In this document: positions 4,253 through 27,249 of the stretch, piece by piece
Numbering within the stretch: the first letter of the stretch is position 1
Layout: each line of letters starts with the position of its first letter
From: a candidate division WOR-3 bacterium
GTDB taxonomy: Bacteria > Hydrothermota > Tepidihabitantia > Tepidihabitantales > Tepidihabitantaceae
Length of the DNA: 64,000 nt
Direction of reading: 5' to 3'
Assembly: GCA_039801085.1 (NCBI GenBank)
Contig: JBDRTY010000002.1
Coordinates: 257,339 to 321,338, forward strand
The notes under the pieces: model-generated
Told to the model about the DNA's origin: nothing
The model's database searches: none
The model's input: the letters and a program-made list of their open reading frames with translations, nothing else
Program-made: the position numbers and the translations under genes

Positions 4253-5071
4253 ATGCCCGAAGGTGAATCCAAGGTAAAACCGGCCGACACCCTGTGGCAG
4301 CGTTGTAACGGGTGCGGTGAAATTATCTACCGCAGGACCCTGGAGTCCAATTTTCATGTCTGTAACCGCTGCGGCTATCATTTCCGGATCGGCCCGGAGG
4401 AGTACATCCGGATTATTCTTGATGAGAACTCCTGGGAGGAGCTGGATGCGGAGCTGATTGCCGGGGATCCGCTGCGGTTTCCGAAGTATCCGGAAAAGCT
4501 CCGGAAGGCAAGGCAGAAGACCGGCAGGAATGATGCGTTCAGTTATGGCCGGGGCATGTGCGGCAGAATCCCGGTGGTGTTCGGAGTGATGGACTTCGGC
4601 TTTATCGGCGGCAGTATGGGTTCGGTGGTCGGCGAGAAGGTAGCAAGGGCGATCCGGCTTGCAAGAAATGATGCCCGGCCGCTGATCATCGTTGCCACTT
4701 CGGGCGGTGCCCGGATGCAGGAAGGGATCATCTCGCTGATGCAGATGGCAAAGACTTCAGCCGAGCTGGGACTGCTGCGTCAGGCCCGGGTGCCCTACAT
4801 TGCGATTCCGGTTGACCCATGCACTGCCGGGGTGATGGCATCATTTGCCTCGCTCGGGGATGTGATCATTTCTGAGCCGAATGCCCTCTTGGGATTTGCG
4901 GGTCAGCGGGTGATTGAGGATACGATCGGCGAAAAACTGCCGCCGGGTTTTCAGCGGGCGGAGTTCATGCTCCGGCACGGGCTGGTGGATATTGTGGTCC
5001 CCCGCCGGAATCTGAAAGAGACGGTGGTGCGGATTCTTTCGGTTCTGTGGCACCGGCGTAAAGGTCTATGA
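4253..5071 (+). CDS. accD: Acetyl-CoA carboxylase carboxyltransferase subunit beta
   Basis: A 272-residue beta subunit of the carboxyltransferase that makes malonyl-CoA for fatty acid synthesis. An N-terminal four-cysteine zinc ribbon (CNGC, then CNRC 17 residues further on) is followed by the crotonase-like core with TSGGARMQEGIISLMQMAKT, GVMASFASLGD and GFAGQRVIEDTI, all typical of AccD. Length is normal. The partner accA is not in the window. No Shine-Dalgarno; the start lies 5 bases after a -10 box. The stop overlaps the ATG of the next gene (ATGA), so the two are coupled. Confidence 0.95.
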   Translation: MPEGESKVKPADTLWQRCNGCGEIIYRRTLESNFHVCNRCGYHFRIGPEEYIRIILDENSWEELDAELIAGDPLRFPKYPEKLRKARQKTGRNDAFSYGRGMCGRIPVVFGVMDFGFIGGSMGSVVGEKVARAIRLARNDARPLIIVATSGGARMQEGIISLMQMAKTSAELGLLRQARVPYIAIPVDPCTAGVMASFASLGDVIISEPNALLGFAGQRVIEDTIGEKLPPGFQRAEFMLRHGLVDIVVPRRNLKETVVRILSVLWHRRKGL

Positions 5072-17624: not shown

Positions 17625-17652
17625 TTGACATTTTCGGGCAGGGTTATAAAAT
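17625..17652 (+). promoter_or_regulatory. Promoter of the Xaa-Pro peptidase gene (leaderless type)
   Basis: Perfect TTGACA, a 16-base spacer, TAAAAT, then 8 bases to ATG 17661. The TTG is in frame with the gene, exactly 36 bases upstream. Confidence 0.65.
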
Positions 17653-17660
17653 TTGAGCCG

Positions 17661-18737
17661 ATGGAGAAAAGGATTGCCCAGCTCCAGAAACAGCTCGTCC
17701 GGGAAAGGCTGGACGGAATCATAATTTCCGGTTTGAACAACATCCGCTATCTCTGCGGTTATACTGGCAGTAACGGGATGATGATTGTGACCCGGCGTGC
17801 TGCCGTTTTTTATACCGATTTCCGTTATCAGGAGCAGATTAAAACCGAGGTCCGGGGCTGTGACAAAAAAATTCTGGAACGGGATCTTTACAGCTCGTTT
17901 CCGGTTGCTGAGTTAAAGCGGATGCTGGGGTCAAAACCCAGTCCGCGCATCGGGGTGGAGGAGGGTAATCTGAGTCTGGCAAGGTTCCGGATGCTGCGCC
18001 GCCAGCTCAAGGGGGTCAGGCTGATTCCGGTCCGGGATCTGGTCTTGGAACTGAGGCGCAGCAAGAGCCGTCCCGAACTGGCACGAATGCAGCGGGCACA
18101 GGAGATTACCGAGCAGGCGTTTAACCGGGCGCTCAAGCTGGTGAAATCGGGAATTACTGAACAGGACTTGGCACTGGAGATTGAGTTTTATTTCCGGCGG
18201 TTTGGCGAGCCCGCATTTCCTTCGATTGTGGCATCGGGGGAGAATGGCGCCAAGCCTCATGCCCGTGCCGGGCTGCGCCGGTTGAAAAAAGGTGATGCGA
18301 TCACATTTGACATCGGTTGCCGGTATCAGGGCTACTGTGCCGATATGACCCGCACAGTATTTCTGGGCAGACCGGACCCCGAGCTGAGACGGATATATGA
18401 GGCGGTACTGCAGGCGCAGCAGGAGGCGCTCGGAGTTATGAAACCCGGCGTGCCGTGCAAGTTTGTGGATCTGGCAGCAAGAGAATATCTTAATCAGCAG
18501 CAACTGGGTCAGTTTTTTGGCCACAGCCTGGGCCATGGTGTCGGGCTGGAGGTGCACGAGCAGCCGGCTCTTGCCCGGACCAGCCGGCAGACACTGGAGC
18601 CGGGGGATGTGGTAACGGTGGAGCCGGGTGTTTATCTGCCTGGAAAAGGCGGGGTGAGAATTGAAGATATGGTGCTGGTTACCAGTACCGGGATTCGCAA
18701 TTTTACCAAGGCAGACAAGGAGTTAATGATAATTTAA
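17661..18737 (+). CDS. M24 Xaa-Pro aminopeptidase (PepP/PepQ type)
   Basis: A 358-residue metallopeptidase that removes residues ahead of proline. An N-terminal creatinase-like domain (RLDGIIISGLNNIRYLCGYTG) is followed by the pita-bread catalytic domain. The five metal ligands are visible in ITFDIGCRYQGYCADMTR (two Asp), GHSLGHGVGLEVHE (His), VVTVEPGVY (Glu) and GVRIEDMVLV (Glu). Start 17661 is preferred over the in-frame TTG at 17625 because the latter is the -35 element. The unit probably includes efp 9 bases downstream. Confidence 0.92.
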   Translation: MEKRIAQLQKQLVRERLDGIIISGLNNIRYLCGYTGSNGMMIVTRRAAVFYTDFRYQEQIKTEVRGCDKKILERDLYSSFPVAELKRMLGSKPSPRIGVEEGNLSLARFRMLRRQLKGVRLIPVRDLVLELRRSKSRPELARMQRAQEITEQAFNRALKLVKSGITEQDLALEIEFYFRRFGEPAFPSIVASGENGAKPHARAGLRRLKKGDAITFDIGCRYQGYCADMTRTVFLGRPDPELRRIYEAVLQAQQEALGVMKPGVPCKFVDLAAREYLNQQQLGQFFGHSLGHGVGLEVHEQPALARTSRQTLEPGDVVTVEPGVYLPGKGGVRIEDMVLVTSTGIRNFTKADKELMII

Positions 18738-18746
18738 GGAGTGGCA

Positions 18747-19304
18747 ATGGTAACACCAAACGATTTCAGAACCGGTCTGTTAATTAAATACAACAATGAA
18801 ATCTATGAAGTTCTTTCCTATGCCCGGACCAGGACCGCACAGCGCCGGGCACGGGTGCTGACCAAGATGCGCAACATCCGCACCGGAGCGCTGATTGAGG
18901 AGAGTTTTGAATCGGAAATCAAGCTGGAAACGGTGGAGATGGAACGGCGCAAGGGTCAGTTTCTTTATGCTGATGATACCGGTTACCACTTCATGGATAT
19001 GGAGACCTATGACCAGTTTGCCCTGAAGCGGGAGGTGCTCGGTGACAAGGTGTTTTATCTGACTGAAGGGGTGGAGGTGGAGATTGGCTATATTGAAGGG
19101 GTGCCGATGCTGATTGAGCCGCCGATTTTCATTGTGCTGGAGGTGGTGGAGACCGAGCCCAATTACCGGGGTGATACCGCAACCGGCGGGGGCAAGCCGG
19201 CAAAATTGTCAACCGGACTGGTAGTGGATGTGCCGTTTTTCATCAAGGTCGGCGACCGGGTGCGGATTGATACCCGCACCAACACCTATGTTGAGCGGGC
19301 ATAA
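18747..19304 (+). CDS. efp: Translation elongation factor P
   Basis: A 185-residue EF-P of three beta-barrel domains that rescues ribosomes stalled at polyproline. It shows NDFRTGLLIKYNNEIYEVL, domain II with MDMETYDQFAL, and the diagnostic C-terminus GDTATGGGKPAKLSTGLVVDVPFF. The tip of domain I reads RTRTAQRRARV. In an ungapped alignment with Thermus EF-P from memory, the tip position (Arg32 there) is Gln32 here, neither Lys nor Arg. ATG 18747 is chosen (TAAGGA 6 bases upstream); a GTG at 18741 overlaps that site. It is coupled downstream to a biotin-carboxylase homologue. Confidence 0.95.
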   Translation: MVTPNDFRTGLLIKYNNEIYEVLSYARTRTAQRRARVLTKMRNIRTGALIEESFESEIKLETVEMERRKGQFLYADDTGYHFMDMETYDQFALKREVLGDKVFYLTEGVEVEIGYIEGVPMLIEPPIFIVLEVVETEPNYRGDTATGGGKPAKLSTGLVVDVPFFIKVGDRVRIDTRTNTYVERA

Positions 19305-19310
19305 CGGGGT

Positions 19311-20606
19311 GTGTTCAGGAAGGTTCTTGTAGCCTGCCGGGGAATTCCGGCACTGCGGATCATCCGCACCTGCCGGGAGCTCGGCATCAGGAGTGTTGTT
19401 CCCTGCTCGGAGGCGGACCGGACCGCACTGCCGGTGCTTTTAGCCGATGAGACGGTATGCATCGGACCGGCGCCGCTCCGGGATTCCTATCTCAATGTAT
19501 CAAGGCTCCTGGCAGCGGCGGAGATCACCCGCTGTGATGCGCTCCATCCGGGCTGGGGTTTTCTCGGAGCGGATCCGGAGTTTGCCGATGCTACTATCAG
19601 TTCGGGAATTGCGTTTATCGGACCGGGTCCGGATACGCTCCAGCTGTTAGCGGACCGGCTGGCACAGCGCCGGCTGGCTCAGGAGCTGAAAATTCCGGTT
19701 GTGCCCGGAACCGAGGAGCCGGTCAGCAGTCCGGCGCAGGCGGTGACCGCAGCCCAACAGCTGGGTCTGCCGGTTGTGGTCAGACCTGTTGCCAGCAGTC
19801 TGCGCTCCAGCCGCCTGATTGTCAAGGAAAAGGATATTGAGTATCAGGTGCGGATGTGCCAGGCCGAGGTCCGGGCACATAGCAGCACTGAGCAGGTTTA
19901 TCTGGAGAGGCATCTGTCCCGGACCCGGCCGGTCGAGGTGCTGGTAATTTTCTCTCAGGCGGTGGCAGACTGGGAGGTCGGTTTTTATCACCGGGAGCAG
20001 GACCTGCTTGTTTTCTCCCCGGCGAATCTGCCCGGAAATCTGCGCAACCGGCTGTACCGCTGGTCAAAACTGCTGGCAGAACGGTTGCAGTTTCAGGGTG
20101 CGCTTGTGGCCCGGTTTCTGATTGATGAGGACAATACCCCCTATTTTTTTCAGCTGAGCAGTGAGCTCAGCCCCTGGCATCCACTCGCAGAGATCATCAC
20201 CGGGATGGATATTGTTGCCGCGCAGTTAAAAGTGGCGGCGGGCGAAAAGGACAGGACCATTTCCGCGGGCAAAGGGGTCAGGGCACTGGCAGCGGGTATC
20301 CGGGCGGAGGACCCGGATGCTGATTTCGAACCTTCAACCGGAATTGTTCGTGAGCTGTTACTGCCGGGCGGTCCGCACCTGCGGGTGGAGTCTTGCATAT
20401 ATCCCGGATATGAAATTCCGGGTGAATATGACTTGCTCCTTGTCAATCTCTTTTCCTGGGGGGCGGATCTCGAAACTGCGGTCCGCCGTCTGCTCCGGGG
20501 ATTTGCGGAACTGAACTTCGGCGGTATCCGGACGAATACCGATCTGTTGAATGCGGTGCTCCGGCGCCCGGCTTTCGGAACGCCGGGCAGTCTGGTTATC
20601 TCCTGA
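19311..20606 (+). CDS. Degenerate biotin carboxylase homologue (AccC-like, probably catalytically dead)
   Basis: A 431-residue protein alignable to AccC over its length: VLVACRGIPALRIIRTCREL, AEITRCDALHPGWGFLG, FIGPGPDTLQLLADRL and IRAEDPDADFEPSTG match in order. Nearly every active-site position is changed relative to E. coli AccC as recalled: Lys116 is Arg116, Lys159 is Arg158 and the following glycine-rich loop is replaced by ASSLRSS, the Lys238 region is lost, Glu276 is Arg268, the E-M-N-T-R segment is Q-L-S-S-E, and Arg338 is Gly329. The fold is likely kept without ATP-dependent carboxylation. GTG start just after efp; the accB gene that often sits between efp and accC is absent. Confidence 0.8.
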   Translation: MFRKVLVACRGIPALRIIRTCRELGIRSVVPCSEADRTALPVLLADETVCIGPAPLRDSYLNVSRLLAAAEITRCDALHPGWGFLGADPEFADATISSGIAFIGPGPDTLQLLADRLAQRRLAQELKIPVVPGTEEPVSSPAQAVTAAQQLGLPVVVRPVASSLRSSRLIVKEKDIEYQVRMCQAEVRAHSSTEQVYLERHLSRTRPVEVLVIFSQAVADWEVGFYHREQDLLVFSPANLPGNLRNRLYRWSKLLAERLQFQGALVARFLIDEDNTPYFFQLSSELSPWHPLAEIITGMDIVAAQLKVAAGEKDRTISAGKGVRALAAGIRAEDPDADFEPSTGIVRELLLPGGPHLRVESCIYPGYEIPGEYDLLLVNLFSWGADLETAVRRLLRGFAELNFGGIRTNTDLLNAVLRRPAFGTPGSLVIS

Positions 20607-20629: not shown

Positions 20630-20658
20630 TTGACAGAGGATCATAAGTTTGTTATAAT
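20630..20658 (+). promoter_or_regulatory. Consensus promoter of the major prepilin gene
   Basis: Perfect TTGACA, a 17-base spacer, perfect TATAAT; the leader to the ATG at 20771 is about 105 bases and ends in AAAGGAGG. This is the strongest promoter sequence in the window together with 12987-13014. Confidence 0.85.
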
Positions 20659-20770
20659 GTAATTGAGACGGCGAGCTGCTATGTGTTTACCTTCTTTTTA
20701 TTATAAAGAGATAAACGGTAGCGGCTTGCGGTCTCGTTTATTCCTAAAAAGAAAGGAGGTGCCAAATACC

Positions 20771-21406
20771 ATGAAGAATCGCGGCTTTACACTGATTGAG
20801 CTGCTCGTGGTCATCCTGATTATCGGTATCCTGCTGGCACTGATCATCCCGAACTTCGTCCTGTTCCAGGAGCGCGCCCGTCGTGCATCGGTGAAGAACA
20901 ACATGCACGTAATCCAGACCGCGCTCGAGGCGTATGCTGTGGACCACTACGGCAACTACCCGGGTGAGGATGTGGAATGGGATCCGGGCAACGAGGCGGG
21001 GATCTGTCTGTGGTTCCCGGGTGGTGACCCGATTGGAACCGACGGTGAGCCCAAGCCGGGTAATTTCCCGGTCAACCCGTATGACGGCCGGCGCTACAAT
21101 GATGAGGACAAGGACGAGGAGGACCTGGTCTACCTGGACCTCTTCGGCGAGCTCGAGCCGGGCCAGAACGCCCAGATCCGGGGCAATGATGAGGAGTGTC
21201 CGTACCTTGATTTCGGTGGCACACCGGAGTATCCGGGCGGAATCGGCATCGCCACCTATGTGCCGGATGTCGGTTTCGGTGCTCCGCAGGAGTACGGCAT
21301 CTACGGATTCGGGCGCGATGTCGCCTATCCGATGTATGACCTCGACCCGCTGTGCGATGACCCGACTGATGAGGAGTACTTCATCTTCTTCGTGCTCCAC
21401 AACTAA
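20771..21406 (+). CDS. Type IV prepilin / major pseudopilin, likely abundant
   Basis: A 211-residue prepilin. Short basic leader MKNRG then the class III cleavage site G/FTLIELLVVILIIGILLAL, with Glu5 of the mature protein present. The body is acidic (PGEDVEWDPGNEAG, NDEDKDEEDLVYLD) and ends EEYFIFFVLHN. A perfect promoter, a strong Shine-Dalgarno and its own terminator suggest high expression as the main filament subunit. ATG 20771 is chosen over the upstream in-frame start at 20663 because of the AGGAGG and the canonical leader length. The ending VLHN recurs in the prepilin at 24162, so the two are related. Confidence 0.92.
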   Translation: MKNRGFTLIELLVVILIIGILLALIIPNFVLFQERARRASVKNNMHVIQTALEAYAVDHYGNYPGEDVEWDPGNEAGICLWFPGGDPIGTDGEPKPGNFPVNPYDGRRYNDEDKDEEDLVYLDLFGELEPGQNAQIRGNDEECPYLDFGGTPEYPGGIGIATYVPDVGFGAPQEYGIYGFGRDVAYPMYDLDPLCDDPTDEEYFIFFVLHN

Positions 21407-21423
21407 TCCTCCAAGAGCAGTGC

Positions 21424-21458
21424 GCGGGGTGGTGAATCCACCCCGCTTTTCTTTTTTC
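21424..21458 (+). terminator. Terminator after the major prepilin
   Basis: Perfect 9-bp stem GCGGGGTGG / CCACCCCGC with TGAAT loop and TTTTCTTTTTTC tail. Confidence 0.92.
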
Positions 21459-21487
21459 TTGACCTGAGCAGAATTAATTTTTATACT
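21459..21487 (+). promoter_or_regulatory. Promoter of the ABC transporter unit (leaderless type)
   Basis: TTGACC begins at the end of the preceding terminator's T-tract; a 17-base spacer, TATACT, and 6 bases to the GTG at 21494. Confidence 0.6.
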
Positions 21488-21493
21488 CAGACT

Positions 21494-22456
21494 GTGGCGG
21501 TGGTTAATCAGCCGGTAATTGAGACCGTCAGGTTGAGCAAATCCTACCGGACCGGTTTCCGGATGAAGCGGGTGCAGGCACTCTCCGAGCTTAACCTGCA
21601 GGTGGAACAGGGCGAGATTTTCGGTTTTTTGGGTCCCAACGGCGCAGGCAAGACCACTACGATTAAAATCCTTATCGGCCTGGCACAGCCCAGCAGCGGT
21701 TTTGCCACGGTGCTGGGCCGGGCACCGCGTGACCCCCGGGTGAAACGGCGGGTCGGTTTTCTGCCCGAGTCACCCTATTTCTATGAGTATCTGACCGCGG
21801 TTGAATTTCTGACCCTCACCGCCCAGCTTTCCGGTGTTCCTTACAGTGAAATTCCGGGGCGGGTCCGGCAGATGCTGAAGCTGGTCCGGATGGAGCATGC
21901 GGCCAGTCAGCAGATGCGCGGTTTTTCCCGGGGAATGCTCCAGCGGATCGGGATTGCTCAGGCGCTGATTCATGACCCGGAGGTGGTGATTCTTGATGAG
22001 CCGATGGGCGGACTGGACCCGATTGGCAGAAAGGAGTTCCGGGATATAATTGTCGGACTGCGGGAACAGGGGAAAACCGTATTTTTCTCAACTCACATTC
22101 TGGCGGATGTGGAGATGATCTGCGACCGGGTGGGAATTATTGTGGGCGGGAAGATGGTGGAAATCGGCAGACTGAGCGAGATTCTGACCGGAGAGGTGGA
22201 GTCAATTGAGATTACCCTGCAGGGCGTCAGTGGCAAATTCCGCAAGGGGCTGGAGAGGATCGCCGAGCGCTCAATTGAGTCCGGTGAACTGCTGCTCTTG
22301 ACCGTGAAGAGTGAGGAGGATGTGGAGCGGGTACTGGCGATTGCCCGCGAGGCACAGGCGAAGGTGCGCTCAATCATTCCCCGTTCCCTGACACTGGAGG
22401 AGTTTTTCATGTCCCGGGTGAGGGGCGCAGGCAGAAACGGGGGGGGCAATGCTTAA
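21494..22456 (+). CDS. ABC-2 type transporter ATP-binding protein
   Basis: A 320-residue ATPase. Walker A is GPNGAGKTTT (near residues 48-57), the signature region reads MRGFSRGMLQRIGIAQALIH, Walker B VVILDEPMGGLDPIG, and the switch His is in FFSTHILADVEMICDRVG. The C-terminal 80 residues resemble the DUF4162 tail of CcmA/DrrA-type exporters. It pairs with the permease that overlaps its end by 8 bases. GTG start without Shine-Dalgarno. Its position between prepilin genes is unusual; the cargo is unknown. Confidence 0.92.
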   Translation: MAVVNQPVIETVRLSKSYRTGFRMKRVQALSELNLQVEQGEIFGFLGPNGAGKTTTIKILIGLAQPSSGFATVLGRAPRDPRVKRRVGFLPESPYFYEYLTAVEFLTLTAQLSGVPYSEIPGRVRQMLKLVRMEHAASQQMRGFSRGMLQRIGIAQALIHDPEVVILDEPMGGLDPIGRKEFRDIIVGLREQGKTVFFSTHILADVEMICDRVGIIVGGKMVEIGRLSEILTGEVESIEITLQGVSGKFRKGLERIAERSIESGELLLLTVKSEEDVERVLAIAREAQAKVRSIIPRSLTLEEFFMSRVRGAGRNGGGNA

Positions 22457-23216
22457 CCGGATCTGGGGTATCGCCTTTAACACCTTCCGGGAATCGGTCC
22501 GGGATCGGGTACTGGTGGCGCTGATTGTGATTGCAATTCTTGTGATGGCAAGCGCCAAGGTGATCCAGCCGGTGGCTCTGGGCGAGGCAGAAAAGATTAT
22601 CAAGGATTTGGGGCTTTCCGCCATTACGCTGTTCTGTGTGCTGATTGCCATCCTCGTCGGCGGCCGGATTGTCTACCGGGAGGTGGAGAAGCGGACGATT
22701 TACCTGCTGCTTGCCCGGCCGGTGCGGCGCTATGAGTTCATCATCGGCAAATACTGCGGGATGATGCTGGTGCTCGGGGTGAGTCTGGTGCTGATGACTG
22801 CCGGATTTTATCTCGTGCTGCTTCTGACCGGAGTCAAACCGGAGCCGCGTCTGCTCTGGGCGGTGATGATGACCGGTTTTGAACTGGCGATTCTGACTGC
22901 AGTTGCGGTCCTCTTTTCCACATTTGTCACACCGATCGCCAGTGCGGTGTTTACCTTTGTTGTCTACTTTATCGGTCACAGCACGCAGCTGCTGCGCCAG
23001 CTGGCAGCAATCAGTCCGGCACCGATTGTCAAGTTCATCGGCATGTTTCTCTATTATGTCCTGCCCAATCTGAATAATTTCAACATCCGGGGCGATGTCG
23101 TCCATAATGCACCGCTCAACCCGCTGGCAATGGGGCTGTCGATTGCCTATGCGCTGGTTTACACCTTCACCCTGCTCCTGATTGCCATTTTTGTCTTCAA
23201 CCGGCGGGACTTCTGA
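22449..23216 (+). CDS. ABC-2 type transporter permease
   Basis: A 255-residue membrane protein with about six hydrophobic helices. The N-terminal amphipathic NRIWGIAFNTFRESVRDRVL and the later REVEKRTIYLLLARPVRRYEFIIGKY are typical of ABC-2/NosY-like permeases. It forms the membrane half of the exporter with the preceding ATPase. It ends by overlapping one base with the start of the following gene, so three genes are tightly coupled. Confidence 0.88.
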   Translation: MLNRIWGIAFNTFRESVRDRVLVALIVIAILVMASAKVIQPVALGEAEKIIKDLGLSAITLFCVLIAILVGGRIVYREVEKRTIYLLLARPVRRYEFIIGKYCGMMLVLGVSLVLMTAGFYLVLLLTGVKPEPRLLWAVMMTGFELAILTAVAVLFSTFVTPIASAVFTFVVYFIGHSTQLLRQLAAISPAPIVKFIGMFLYYVLPNLNNFNIRGDVVHNAPLNPLAMGLSIAYALVYTFTLLLIAIFVFNRRDF

Positions 23217-24112
23217 TGAAGCTGGTTGAAATCACCAGACCGGTGCCGCGGGGACCCGGTGTGCTTGTTTCCCTGCTGCCGGTGGTGCTGGTGATCTGGG
23301 GGTTTGTCGGAATCTATCTGCTGCAGCTGTCACTTGATGCGACCAGCCGCCGGGCCGGGGAAAGGCTGATGCAGGAGCTTGCCTATTTTCCCTCCGGAGT
23401 TGCCCTGCGGGAGATGGTGATTGAGTATGAGGAGCTCGCTGCCGATTTCATCTGGCTGACCGCAATTGACTATTACGGCCGGCACCAGCAGACTGACCGG
23501 CGCTACGAATGGCTGGGTCATATCTTTGAGATTCTGACCACACTCGACCCGCGGTTTATCGGCGCCTATCACTTCGGGGCGATCACCCTTGCCTGGGATG
23601 CCCACAATCCGGCAGCGGCACTGCGCTTTCTGCTCGACGGCATGAAGGCAAATCCGCTCAACTGGCAGCTGCCGTTTGATGCCGGGTTTATCAATTACAT
23701 CCTGATCGGTGACTATCAGGCGGCCGCCCGGCTGTTTCAGGTTGCTGCCCGGCTGCCAAATGCCTGGCCGATCATCGAACGCTGGGTTCCCTATGCTACT
23801 GCCCGGAGCGGTGATTATGCCAGTGCCCGCGAGATGTGGAAAGATCTGTATTACAGCACGGACAATAAAAAACTGAAGGAGCTGATTGTCCGGCAGCTGA
23901 AATGGCTGAAGCTGGAGGAGGGGCTGGCGGAAATTCAGCGCGCGGTCAACCAGTTCATTGAAAAGGAAAAGCGGGTGCCGGGCAGTATTGAGGAGTTGAA
24001 GCAGCGGGGTTACCTGCCGGTCCTGCCCGAAGAGCCCTATGGCGGCCGGTTTTATCTTGACGGTGACAGGGTCCGGACAACCACACCACCCAGCCGGCGC
24101 GGTTCAGGATAA
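23216..24112 (+). CDS. Membrane-anchored TPR-like protein of unknown function
   Basis: A 298-residue protein with one N-terminal membrane helix (residues 17-39) and a helical-repeat body. Residues 80-230 contain TPR-like pairs, for example AALRFLLDGMKANPLNWQLP and DYQAAARLFQVAARLPNAWP. The C-terminal part ends in VPGSIEELKQRGYLPVLPEEPYGG, a phrase similar to the LP-x-x-L motif in the pseudopilins nearby. Similar proteins are common beside ABC-2 exporters and pseudopilins; a scaffolding role in that export or assembly system is inferred, not shown. Confidence 0.7.
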   Translation: MKLVEITRPVPRGPGVLVSLLPVVLVIWGFVGIYLLQLSLDATSRRAGERLMQELAYFPSGVALREMVIEYEELAADFIWLTAIDYYGRHQQTDRRYEWLGHIFEILTTLDPRFIGAYHFGAITLAWDAHNPAAALRFLLDGMKANPLNWQLPFDAGFINYILIGDYQAAARLFQVAARLPNAWPIIERWVPYATARSGDYASAREMWKDLYYSTDNKKLKELIVRQLKWLKLEEGLAEIQRAVNQFIEKEKRVPGSIEELKQRGYLPVLPEEPYGGRFYLDGDRVRTTTPPSRRGSG

Positions 24113-24115
24113 AAC

Positions 24116-24144
24116 TTGACAGCTATGATGTGAATTACTATTAT
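24116..24144 (+). promoter_or_regulatory. Promoter of the second prepilin gene
   Basis: Perfect TTGACA, a 17-base spacer, TATTAT; a short leader with AAAGGAGA before ATG 24162. Confidence 0.7.
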
Positions 24145-24161
24145 TTAACAAAGGAGACTTT

Positions 24162-24698
24162 ATGTGTCCCAAAAACCGCGGTTTTACCCTTGTGGAACTT
24201 TTGGTGGTAATCATGATTCTGGGTGTGCTGATGGGAATGTCAGTGCCGAGATTTTCCGGACTGCGCAACCAGGCACGGATTGCCGCAATGAAGATGAATC
24301 TGCACAATGTCCAGACCGCCATTGAGGTATTTCATCAGGAGTTCGGTTATTATGCCGAGGATTTTTACGAGGATGGATACGGCTGCGTGTTTCCCGGAGG
24401 AGAGTATGATGTCCGGATCGGCAAACTGCCGACCAATCCCTACAGCGGCAAGGAGATGGATCCGGATGAGTTCAATCCTGAGGATTATGATGAGCTCACG
24501 GAAATCAGTAATACTGATGAATACGGTCCGAATGATGTCTACGGCTATGACCCCGGCAACATCGTTTACAAGGTTTATGACCCGCCCGGTTCCGCCTATC
24601 CGACACATTACGGTCTGTTGGGAATTGACCACAGCGGTTCATCAATCCGGGATTTTGATGCCGACGGCGATGCGGTGATTTTTGTGCTGCACAACTGA
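24162..24698 (+). CDS. Type IV prepilin-like protein
   Basis: A 178-residue prepilin. Leader MCPKNRG then FTLVELLVVIMILGVLMGMS, with Glu5 present. The body has PTNPYSGKEMDP and an acidic, Tyr-rich stretch and ends DAVIFVLHN, the same ending as the major prepilin at 20771, suggesting duplication. Own promoter and Shine-Dalgarno. Likely a minor or condition-specific filament subunit processed by the PilD encoded at 33288. Confidence 0.9.
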   Translation: MCPKNRGFTLVELLVVIMILGVLMGMSVPRFSGLRNQARIAAMKMNLHNVQTAIEVFHQEFGYYAEDFYEDGYGCVFPGGEYDVRIGKLPTNPYSGKEMDPDEFNPEDYDELTEISNTDEYGPNDVYGYDPGNIVYKVYDPPGSAYPTHYGLLGIDHSGSSIRDFDADGDAVIFVLHN

Positions 24699-24729
24699 TG
24701 AGGGGGGCAGAATGGACAGGTGTTTGTCC

Positions 24730-24758
24730 TTGACAGGAGAAGGAGAGATTTCTATAAT
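24730..24758 (+). promoter_or_regulatory. Consensus promoter overlapping the third prepilin's ribosome site
   Basis: Perfect TTGACA, a 17-base spacer, perfect TATAAT. The spacer contains GGAGAAGGAGAG, which is also a Shine-Dalgarno for ATG 24757; the -10 shares bases with that ATG. GTG 24766 lies 7 bases past the -10. Confidence 0.65.
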
Positions 24759-25308
24759 GACTTTTGTGAGCGCCAGAGACAGTTCAGGGCGCGGGTTCAC
24801 CTTGGTGGAACTGCTGGTCGTTATTTCAGTTCTTGGAATTCTCCTTGCCTTTTTTGTTCCCACAATGATCTCCCGGGTGGCGACCAATGCCCGGCGTACC
24901 GCCACTTTACAGGAAATGAATGTTCTGCGCGAGGCGATCATGGGCAATCCGGACCTCCGGATTGGCGGTGAGGCGGTCGGTTACGGTTTCAAGCAGGATG
25001 TGGGGAGACTGCCGCGGGATCTGATTGAGCTGGCAACCCGTAACCCGTTTGAGGGTATTTATGCCCAGCGGTTGTATGTCGGCAAGGAAACACTGCCTGC
25101 CTGGGACCCCTATATTCAGAAGGGCTGGAACGGACCTTATATCCGAGAAGACGGCGAAATGGGTTATCTGTATGACGCTTGGGGGACCGAATACCGTTAC
25201 TGGGTGGAAAACAATGAGACGCTCGGTCTGATGAGTGCCGGTCCGGACGGCCTTTTCTGGGGACAGCCCGGTGCGGTCAAGAATGACGATATCAGGGTGA
25301 GGTTCTGA
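24757..25308 (+). CDS. Type IV pseudopilin (GspG-like)
   Basis: A pseudopilin of about 184 residues. Leader ends at RG/FTLVELLVVISVLGILLAFF. The mature body carries GFKQDVGRLPRDLIEL, GWNGPYIREDG and YDAWGTEYRYW, the motif set of GspG-type pseudopilins. Two starts are possible: ATG 24757 with a Shine-Dalgarno (used by read-through transcripts) and GTG 24766, which would be a leaderless start for the promoter at 24730; they differ by three residues of the leader. Followed 1 base later by another pseudopilin. Confidence 0.88.
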   Translation: MTFVSARDSSGRGFTLVELLVVISVLGILLAFFVPTMISRVATNARRTATLQEMNVLREAIMGNPDLRIGGEAVGYGFKQDVGRLPRDLIELATRNPFEGIYAQRLYVGKETLPAWDPYIQKGWNGPYIREDGEMGYLYDAWGTEYRYWVENNETLGLMSAGPDGLFWGQPGAVKNDDIRVRF

Positions 25309-25309
25309 T

Positions 25310-26110
25310 ATGAAGCGGAGAATTGATCGCGGTGTGACCCTGATTGAACTGCTGGTAGTAATTATGATTCTGAGCGTGATTCTCACCGCCGCAATCAAGA
25401 CCTGGGATGTGACGCTGGAGCGGGGCCGTTTTGAGCAGACCCGGCAGAAGCTGGACCGGCTGGCAAAGGTGATTACCGGGGATCCGGACTATGTGGTGGG
25501 AGGGGTGCGGGCGGATTTCGGTTTTGTTGGCGACATGGGTGCGCTCCCCCGCACGCTCAGTGATCTGGTGAATCCGCCCAGCTGGGTTGCGCCGCCCGAA
25601 AGCAGTCGCTGGCGCGGACCTTACATCAAGTCAACTTTTAATGAATCGCCGGAAGGCTACCGGATTGACGGCTGGGGTGATACGATTGTATTTGAGCGGG
25701 ACAGTCTGTTTCTCCGCAGCTACGGCGGCGGGGGACTGGTTGATCGAAAGCGCTGGATTACCAAACCGCTGGGTTACAGCGTTAATGACCTGCTGCACAA
25801 TATCGTGGACGGTTCAATTGTGGACCAGCGTGGTGTGCCACCACCGGATTCGATTCTGCCGAGGATTACCGTTCAGCTGGAGTACCCGCGTCAGGGGGTG
25901 CTGTACCGGGACAGCTATACACCGGCAACCAACGGTCTGTTTGAGTTCCGGGATGTCCCGCAGGGGGTCCAGACTTTAAGGGTGATGATCTGGCACTATT
26001 ATCCGCCACCGCCGCGGTGTGATACCGTTACCCGAGCGGTGACAGTATTTCCACGCGTTGGTGCGCGGGGAATTGAAGTCCGGTTGAATGTGGACTGGAA
26101 CAACATGTGA
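25310..26110 (+). CDS. Pseudopilin with C-terminal Ig-like extension
   Basis: A 266-residue protein. Leader MKRRIDRG then VTLIELLVVIMILSVILTAA: Val replaces the usual Phe at +1, and Glu5 is kept. The pseudopilin body shows GFVGDMGALPRTLSDL and WRGPYIKSTF. From about residue 160 a beta-rich tail begins (VDGSIVDQRGVPPPDS, then NGLFEFRDVPQGVQTLRV) resembling a carboxypeptidase-regulatory-like or CNA-B fold. It belongs to the operon starting near 24730. Confidence 0.85.
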   Translation: MKRRIDRGVTLIELLVVIMILSVILTAAIKTWDVTLERGRFEQTRQKLDRLAKVITGDPDYVVGGVRADFGFVGDMGALPRTLSDLVNPPSWVAPPESSRWRGPYIKSTFNESPEGYRIDGWGDTIVFERDSLFLRSYGGGGLVDRKRWITKPLGYSVNDLLHNIVDGSIVDQRGVPPPDSILPRITVQLEYPRQGVLYRDSYTPATNGLFEFRDVPQGVQTLRVMIWHYYPPPPRCDTVTRAVTVFPRVGARGIEVRLNVDWNNM

Positions 26111-26118
26111 GGTGGAAA

Positions 26119-27249
26119 ATGAGAAGCCAAGCCAAGGCACAGGGGTTTACCCTGATGGAGTTGCTGGTGGTGTTGTTGATCATCGGAATTCTGAGCACGG
26201 TCGCAATCCGGACGATCGATGCCACCCGGGATCGGTCGCTGTTTGACCAGACGCTGAAGGAAATGCGGGAGCTGTCCTATGCGATGGTGGGCAATCCGGA
26301 GATAACTGCGAATGGTCACCGGGTTGATTTCGGATTTTATGGTGATATGATGCGGTTGCCCAACGATCTGCGGGAGCTGGTGGAAAACACGAGTAATTCT
26401 CCCAACTGGCGCGGTCCTTATCTGCGCCGGGAGTTTCTGCAGGACAGTGTCGGTTACCGCTACGATGCCTGGGGCAACCCGTATACCTATAATCCCGCCA
26501 CCGGTACAATTGCCACGGTCGGCAACGGCAAGTATCCGATGACCATCAGGATTGTGGATTCAATTGTTCATCTCACCAACAACAGTATTATCGGCACTGT
26601 TACCGATGCCGATAACAATCCGCCGGGCGATAAGGCGGCAACGGTCGGCATCTACCTTTATCTGCCGAACGGCACGACATTTTTTACCCGGCCCGATGCC
26701 GGCGGTTATTACGAATTCACCCCGGCCAGCACCCATGGCGGCATTCCCATCGGTAATCACAAGATTATTGCCCGGCGTCCCGGCGGTGATTCCATTGTCA
26801 AATGGGTGACCGTCGTGCCGCGGAGCCGGACGGTCGTTGATTTCCGTTTCAGCCGTCTGTTTCGGAATTATCTGCAGATGGTCGGGACGCCGAGAATTTC
26901 CGGTGACAGTTCGGGATTTACTATCTGGATTGTGAACCCGGGTGAGAATCCGGATACGGTCCGGACGATCAGTTTCATTGAGGCGCCGGACAGCGCCTAT
27001 ATGCGCTGGCTTTATATCCGCAATCACGAACAGCGGCAATGGGAATATAATCCGGGTGTCGGCAGGGGGGATTCACTGATGATCATGCCCGGACCGTTTG
27101 TGATTTCACCCAACGGGGAGGAAGTGGTCGAATTCAGTTTTTATAACTTTTCCAAGACCCCGATTGGCGGGGATACGAGTAATATTTATAACAAGCTTTT
27201 CCGGTTGAGGTTTAACGATGGTTCGGAGTTCAGTGTCCGACCGCGGTAA
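26119..27249 (+). CDS. Large pseudopilin with carboxypeptidase-regulatory-like domain
   Basis: About 376 residues. Leader MRSQAKAQG then FTLMELLVVLLIIGILSTVA. The pseudopilin body has GFYGDMMRLPNDLREL, WRGPYLRREF and YRYDAWGNPYTYN. From about residue 155 it continues with NNSIIGTVTDADNNPPGDKA and DAGGYYEFTPAS, a carboxypeptidase-regulatory-like module, and a further beta domain to the end. Start ATG 26119 is preferred (GAGGTGG upstream) over GTG 26107, which overlaps the previous stop. It may be a filament-tip subunit carrying a binding domain; that is inference. Confidence 0.86.
   Translation: MRSQAKAQGFTLMELLVVLLIIGILSTVAIRTIDATRDRSLFDQTLKEMRELSYAMVGNPEITANGHRVDFGFYGDMMRLPNDLRELVENTSNSPNWRGPYLRREFLQDSVGYRYDAWGNPYTYNPATGTIATVGNGKYPMTIRIVDSIVHLTNNSIIGTVTDADNNPPGDKAATVGIYLYLPNGTTFFTRPDAGGYYEFTPASTHGGIPIGNHKIIARRPGGDSIVKWVTVVPRSRTVVDFRFSRLFRNYLQMVGTPRISGDSSGFTIWIVNPGENPDTVRTISFIEAPDSAYMRWLYIRNHEQRQWEYNPGVGRGDSLMIMPGPFVISPNGEEVVEFSFYNFSKTPIGGDTSNIYNKLFRLRFNDGSEFSVRPR

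Follow-up and report, generated by a model that had tools for sequence, protein, structure and literature searches.

The question raised by this locus is why a bacterium should keep, directly behind efp, a gene for a full-length relative of biotin carboxylase (BC, AccC) that looks non-catalytic. The organism belongs to candidate division WOR-3 (1.9-Mb assembly, 97% complete), and the gene lies in a window of 64,000 nucleotides, by which we mean the whole stretch of DNA analyzed. The features of the window to which we refer are as follows.

4253..5068, + strand: accD, acetyl-CoA carboxylase CT beta (TIGR00515, 340 bits, above cut-off); not adjacent to the pseudoBC gene
17625..17652, + strand: promoter-like site TTGACA-16-TAAAAT before pepP (consensus scan, 11 of 12 matches; alone no proof of function)
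17661..18737, + strand: pepP-like M24 aminopeptidase (Pfam Peptidase_M24, 7.5e-75), a neighbor conserved family-wide
18741..19304, + strand: efp, elongation factor P with the atypical tip loop RTAQRRA (TIGR00038, 214 bits, above cut-off; loop from alignment)
19311..20606, + strand: pseudoBC, putative biotin carboxylase pseudoenzyme, 6 bp 3' of efp and the last gene before the next promoter-like site
20630..20658, + strand: perfect TTGACA-17-TATAAT site with extended -10 (consensus scan, 12 of 12), preceding the next, pilin-like gene

Locus and transcription unit

The pseudoBC open reading frame encodes 431 amino acids from a GTG start and has no internal stops. Upstream, the pepP start is probably the ATG at 17661, because the listed TTG at 17625 falls inside the promoter-like site. 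Judged by its match to the consensus, the site at 17625..17652 is a candidate promoter of a pepP-efp-pseudoBC unit; it ends 8 bases 5' of the likely pepP ATG, a gap that suggests a leaderless or near-leaderless transcript. Since a perfect promoter-like site lies just 3' of pseudoBC, the efp unit probably ends with this gene. The spacing from efp to the presumably inactive BC gene (below, the inactive copy) is 3-15 bp in the genera that carry one, so the two are probably translationally coupled. An Rfam search around the locus returned no match, and no other carboxylase genes are linked to it. From 20663 to 27249 the window holds a run of genes for proteins that resemble type IV pilins or pseudopilins (N-terminal GFTLIELLVV), broken by ABC transporter and TPR genes.

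The EF-P tip loop reads [KR][IT]AQRRA rather than KPGKGxA throughout the order sampled, with Gln at the position of E. coli Lys34. EF-P in these bacteria may dispense with the usual lysine, or carry a different modification.

Fold and loss of the active site

Pfam recognized all three BC domains in the window protein (Biotin_carb_N, 9e-35; CPSase_L_D2, 6e-25; Biotin_carb_C, 7e-22) and no Biotin_lipoyl domain, and the protein has no homology to BCCP. These three domains, together with orthologs in five further species, rule out a chance open reading frame or a frame artifact. On the accC equivalog model TIGR00514 the protein scores 315 bits, below the cut-off of 626.5, and the gene is near enough to accC to be mis-annotated as that of the enzyme itself. 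Structure prediction, which the sequence-only reading had proposed for the pocket, returned a confident fold (AlphaFold; pLDDT 91, pTM 0.89), as it did for the inactive BC of genus g5 (pLDDT 89, pTM 0.88), and the top Foldseek matches in the PDB were E. coli BC, with a TM score of 0.95 to the ADP-bound form. The predicted fold is partly imposed, because the AlphaFold input alignment includes canonical BCs; its predicted confidence is nonetheless unlike that of a decayed protein.

Residues were assigned by alignment with E. coli AccC, whose sequence and site roles we took as given, and with 16 BCs from the family, all of them canonical or nearly so. The window protein carries K116R, K159R, H209P, Q233Y, H236E, K238D, E276R and R338G; its glycine loop is gone (G163 deleted, GGG replaced by SSL), and E288-M-N-T-R292 has become Q-L-S-S-E (E288Q, N290S, R292E), with Q294S and E296W in addition. 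Every replacement listed in the sequence-only reading of this full-length AccC homolog was reproduced on the alignment. Among 40 other BCs the altered sites are near-invariant, the exceptions being H236, which some replace by Y, F or N, and isolated substitutions at 202, 290 or 294, and the same alignment rules out canonical residues at shifted positions. pseudoBC looks like a non-catalytic BC homolog, lacking the residues for Mg, bicarbonate and biotin.

It had also been claimed that nearly all ATP residues were replaced. That is true of the chemistry side, where the window protein lacks the glycine loop and every Mg ligand, but it overstates the change on the adenine side, where six ATP-contacting residues (116, 159, 201, 202, 204 and 278) are unchanged or conservatively changed. 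Across five inactive copies the adenine-side sites are conservative in 6/6 cases and the chemistry-side sites in 0/12 (p about 0.002 each), under a split that was drawn up post hoc, after the data had been seen, and according to structural roles that we presume for these residues.

The live enzyme and its presumed partners

A canonical accC lies elsewhere in the genome (G000:C1:66786-68075, G000 being the window's genome), with an intact active site and a score of 656 bits, above the accC cut-off. The expectation that the pseudoenzyme coexists with a true accC was thereby borne out, and a genome with no canonical accC elsewhere is ruled out. This live gene adjoins one for a VTT-domain membrane protein and a long frame that we take, from its first residues only, to be valS. 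The accD product of the window is a carboxylase component and would depend on the canonical BC. Other transferases in the genome are an accA-type match and an MmdA-like protein encoded beside a methylmalonyl-CoA mutase gene.

Searches with the Biotin_lipoyl and BCCP models found a single carrier, which makes up the C-terminal part of a protein of about 645 amino acids; this protein carries an EAMKLM motif as well as HMGL-like and PYC_OADA domains. This AccB-grade carrier domain (G000:C1:837764-838267, L054) is fused behind a transferase of the pyruvate-carboxylase/oxaloacetate-decarboxylase type, likewise in 16 other family genomes, and in 17 of 18 genomes the fused carrier passes the cut-off of TIGR00531. 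A free accB was not found in G000 or in 16 other family genomes, although accA and accD are present. Gene content suggests that the AccA/AccD, MmdA-like and pyruvate-carboxylase-type transferases share a single live BC and a single carrier.

Distribution and history in the family

The order pepP-efp-BC is conserved family-wide wherever contigs permit, and pepP-efp-accC is the ancestral order in the family. The earlier remark that accB is gone from this locus is accurate in itself but points to nothing special, as no family member has accB between efp and BC. Genera g2, g3, g4 and g7 have a single, canonical BC, which is efp-linked wherever the contig reaches efp; in g1 (the genus of the window) and g5 the canonical BC lies elsewhere and the efp-linked copy is inactive. 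The inactive copy was seen in six species of these two genera (G000, G004, G005, G007, G008 and G009), a canonical BC is also found in each, and the inactive copy is never the sole BC. Two of the six gene models are truncated: in G009 only the N-terminal 126 residues, with K116R, are present at a contig end, and in G005 the inactive copy is cut at residue 388 by the contig end and the canonical BC is seen as its C-terminal part only.

In the tree, the family BCs form one clade (100/98.7) and the inactive copies one clade within it (100/100), a nesting which implies that the duplication happened within the family. Tests of placing the inactive copies nearest the efp-linked or nearest the second BC gave p-AU values of 0.27 and 0.18, and it is by synteny and not by the tree, that is, because they are located behind efp, that we assign them as the ancestral efp-linked paralog. 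We looked for other pseudo-BCs in the phylum by running a profile of the inactive copies against 147 genomes, and none turned up: the five inactive copies of full or considerable length, from which the profile was built, scored 717-773 bits, and the next match, at 506, was a canonical BC. Within the phylum, to the extent of this sampling, the inactive copy is confined to g1 and g5. In named genomes, a scan with P0001 gave BCs of at most 43% identity, and each of those entered in the residue table was canonical.

The efp-linked BC of the sister genus g6 (L044, L045, L046 and L048) has H236Y and an altered glycine loop; it is the sole BC found in four species and has a canonical BC alongside in two. 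M. tuberculosis AccA3 also has Tyr at the 236 position (PMC5407890), and on this shared residue the g6 protein is probably active, conceivably as a variant that handles nucleotides differently. Both resemble pseudoBC in the altered substrate-bridging loop, and g6 in its glycine loop as well, but the g6 BC differs from pseudoBC in retaining nearly all of its remaining catalytic residues.

Selection and pattern of change

The inactive gene is under purifying selection, weaker than that on the canonical gene yet clear. Pairwise dN/dS (NG86) for the inactive copy was 0.21 between G000 and G004 (CI 0.15-0.27) and 0.19 between G007 and G008 (0.14-0.24), compared with 0.09 for the canonical copy in both pairs and 0.02 to 0.13 for neighboring genes in the G000/G004 pair. 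No inactive copy contains a stop or frameshift, even across the divergent g1-g5 split, so the prediction that the frame is intact and the gene maintained was confirmed.

Constraint is uneven along the protein. Over the N-terminal (A) domain the inactive copy has a dN/dS of 0.08-0.09, about as low as in the canonical copy. When g1 is compared with g5, the ratio of inactive to canonical rates is 1.5 (1.0-2.4) in the A domain and 1.6 (1.0-2.6) in the B lid, rising to 6.1 (4.3-9.3) over residues 204-330 and 3.8 (2.5-6.3) in the C-terminal part. Positions invariant in canonical BCs are kept in all five inactive copies at 22 of 28 sites in the N-terminal domain, as against 24 of 80 elsewhere (Fisher p 1e-5). 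Residues R16, R19, E23, R366 and D382, which we understand to form the BC dimer interface, are all retained in the inactive copy, and the PDB matches include the E. coli BC mutants R16E, E23R and F363A. This retention is only suggestive, because most of the interface falls in a domain conserved across BCs and because two-subunit pyruvate carboxylase tolerates R19E and E23R (PMC5059739).

Proposed role and alternative explanations

We propose that duplication of accC inside this WOR-3 family would have yielded two BC genes and that, in the ancestor of g1 and g5, the relocated copy would have kept the enzyme work while the ancestral efp-linked copy lost catalysis. The efp-linked copy would have been retained as a folded, non-catalytic BC subunit, whose preserved surfaces (A domain and lid) might pair it, in dimers of the BC type, with a second pseudoBC or with the live BC; as a subunit, pseudoBC could then help to regulate or assemble the shared machinery of biotin carboxylation. 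More weakly, an adenine nucleotide might still be bound, though with no Mg and no turnover, and pseudoBC could in that way report nucleotide state. A duplicate-derived, non-catalytic BC subunit of this kind, pairing with itself or with the live BC and perhaps sensing nucleotide, is the explanation that we tentatively favor, at somewhat short of an even chance; it is supported by the occurrence of the inactive copy only beside a canonical BC, by its constraint, and by the preservation of the A domain, lid and dimer residues. Weighing against it are the few species that carry the gene (six, two of them with truncated gene models), a locus set apart from other carboxylase genes, and the tolerance of interface mutations noted above. 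The earlier suggestions of an effect on the true carboxylase, or of nucleotide binding, are compatible with the conservation pattern. A narrower version, in which a heterodimer with pseudoBC tunes the live BC, through a silenced half-site or a report of adenine nucleotide, where one BC and one carrier supply three carboxyltransferases, we regard as possible but unlikely.

The conserved adenine side could also point away from the carboxylase, to a sensor in which the ATP-grasp fold binds ADP, AMP or another ligand and acts elsewhere in the cell. The conservatively retained adenine-side residues and B lid agree with this, as does a locus unlinked to carboxylase genes. However, the window protein has lost the glycine loop and all Mg ligands and has gained no new partner domain, and the kept A-domain and dimer residues suit a BC-type assembly better; we consider a free-standing sensor improbable, though deserving of mention. 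Slow decay of a redundant copy, weakly constrained and heading to loss, would explain a dN/dS twice that of the canonical copy and a core evolving about six times faster. It is harder to reconcile with values far under 1 and with tight intervals in two genera, with an intact frame in every copy, and with an A domain held about as firmly as in the canonical copy, and we think it rather improbable. A new catalytic function, with the active site rebuilt for a different ligase-type reaction, might be read from W82, R116, P160, K174, Q181 and E229, residues that have become fixed across the five copies and of which several lie close to the pocket. But the former catalytic positions vary among g1, G005 and g5 (R, E, H or S at 276; D, N or K at 238), variation that is not expected of a conserved new chemistry, and this explanation seems very unlikely. 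Finally, the suggestion that pseudoBC acts with EF-P as a translation partner, which would account for its place in the efp unit and its probable coupling to efp, is most improbable and unneeded, as the efp neighborhood predates the catalytic loss and occurs with canonical BC, and alignment showed no difference in the EF-P tip loop between genera with and without the inactive copy.

Were a regulatory BC of this kind to prove real in bacteria, it would show that fatty-acid synthesis at its committed step, and carboxylation in general, can be controlled through a BC that does no catalysis. pseudoBC also offers a natural separation of BC functions, with the A domain, B lid and adenine side kept once the chemistry became dispensable. 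We know of no precedent for a regulatory BC subunit in bacteria, and the papers searched contained nothing on a BC pseudoenzyme or on WOR-3 carboxylases.

Comparison with known systems

Among known proteins, pseudoBC is closest in descent to AccC itself (TIGR00514; E. coli PDB 3g8c and 3rv4), being a direct paralog of the live AccC within one genome. It shares the full-length fold (TM 0.95), the three BC domains and the dimer-surface residues, but has lost the glycine loop and the residues for Mg, bicarbonate and biotin, has a shorter C-terminus, and with 315 bits falls short of the 626.5-bit cut-off.

Dead paralogs that regulate a live enzyme are known from a few well-studied cases. An inactive paralog of a carboxylase subunit is a kind already known from plants, where the closest analog, BADC, is a dead paralog of an acetyl-CoA carboxylase subunit kept as a non-catalytic subunit (PMC11926652). 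BADC and pseudoBC are alike in being retained without catalysis. However, BADC derives from the carrier BCCP, which has no homology to BC, and its role in the complex has been tested, whereas that of pseudoBC is inferred. A second precedent is the AdoMetDC prozyme of trypanosomatids (PMC5201418), where the known prozymes, those of AdoMetDC and deoxyhypusine synthase, act through hetero-oligomers (PMC5201418, PMC3663545). There, as here, a dead paralog is encoded alongside a live one, but the folds are unrelated, and for pseudoBC such pairing is a proposal.
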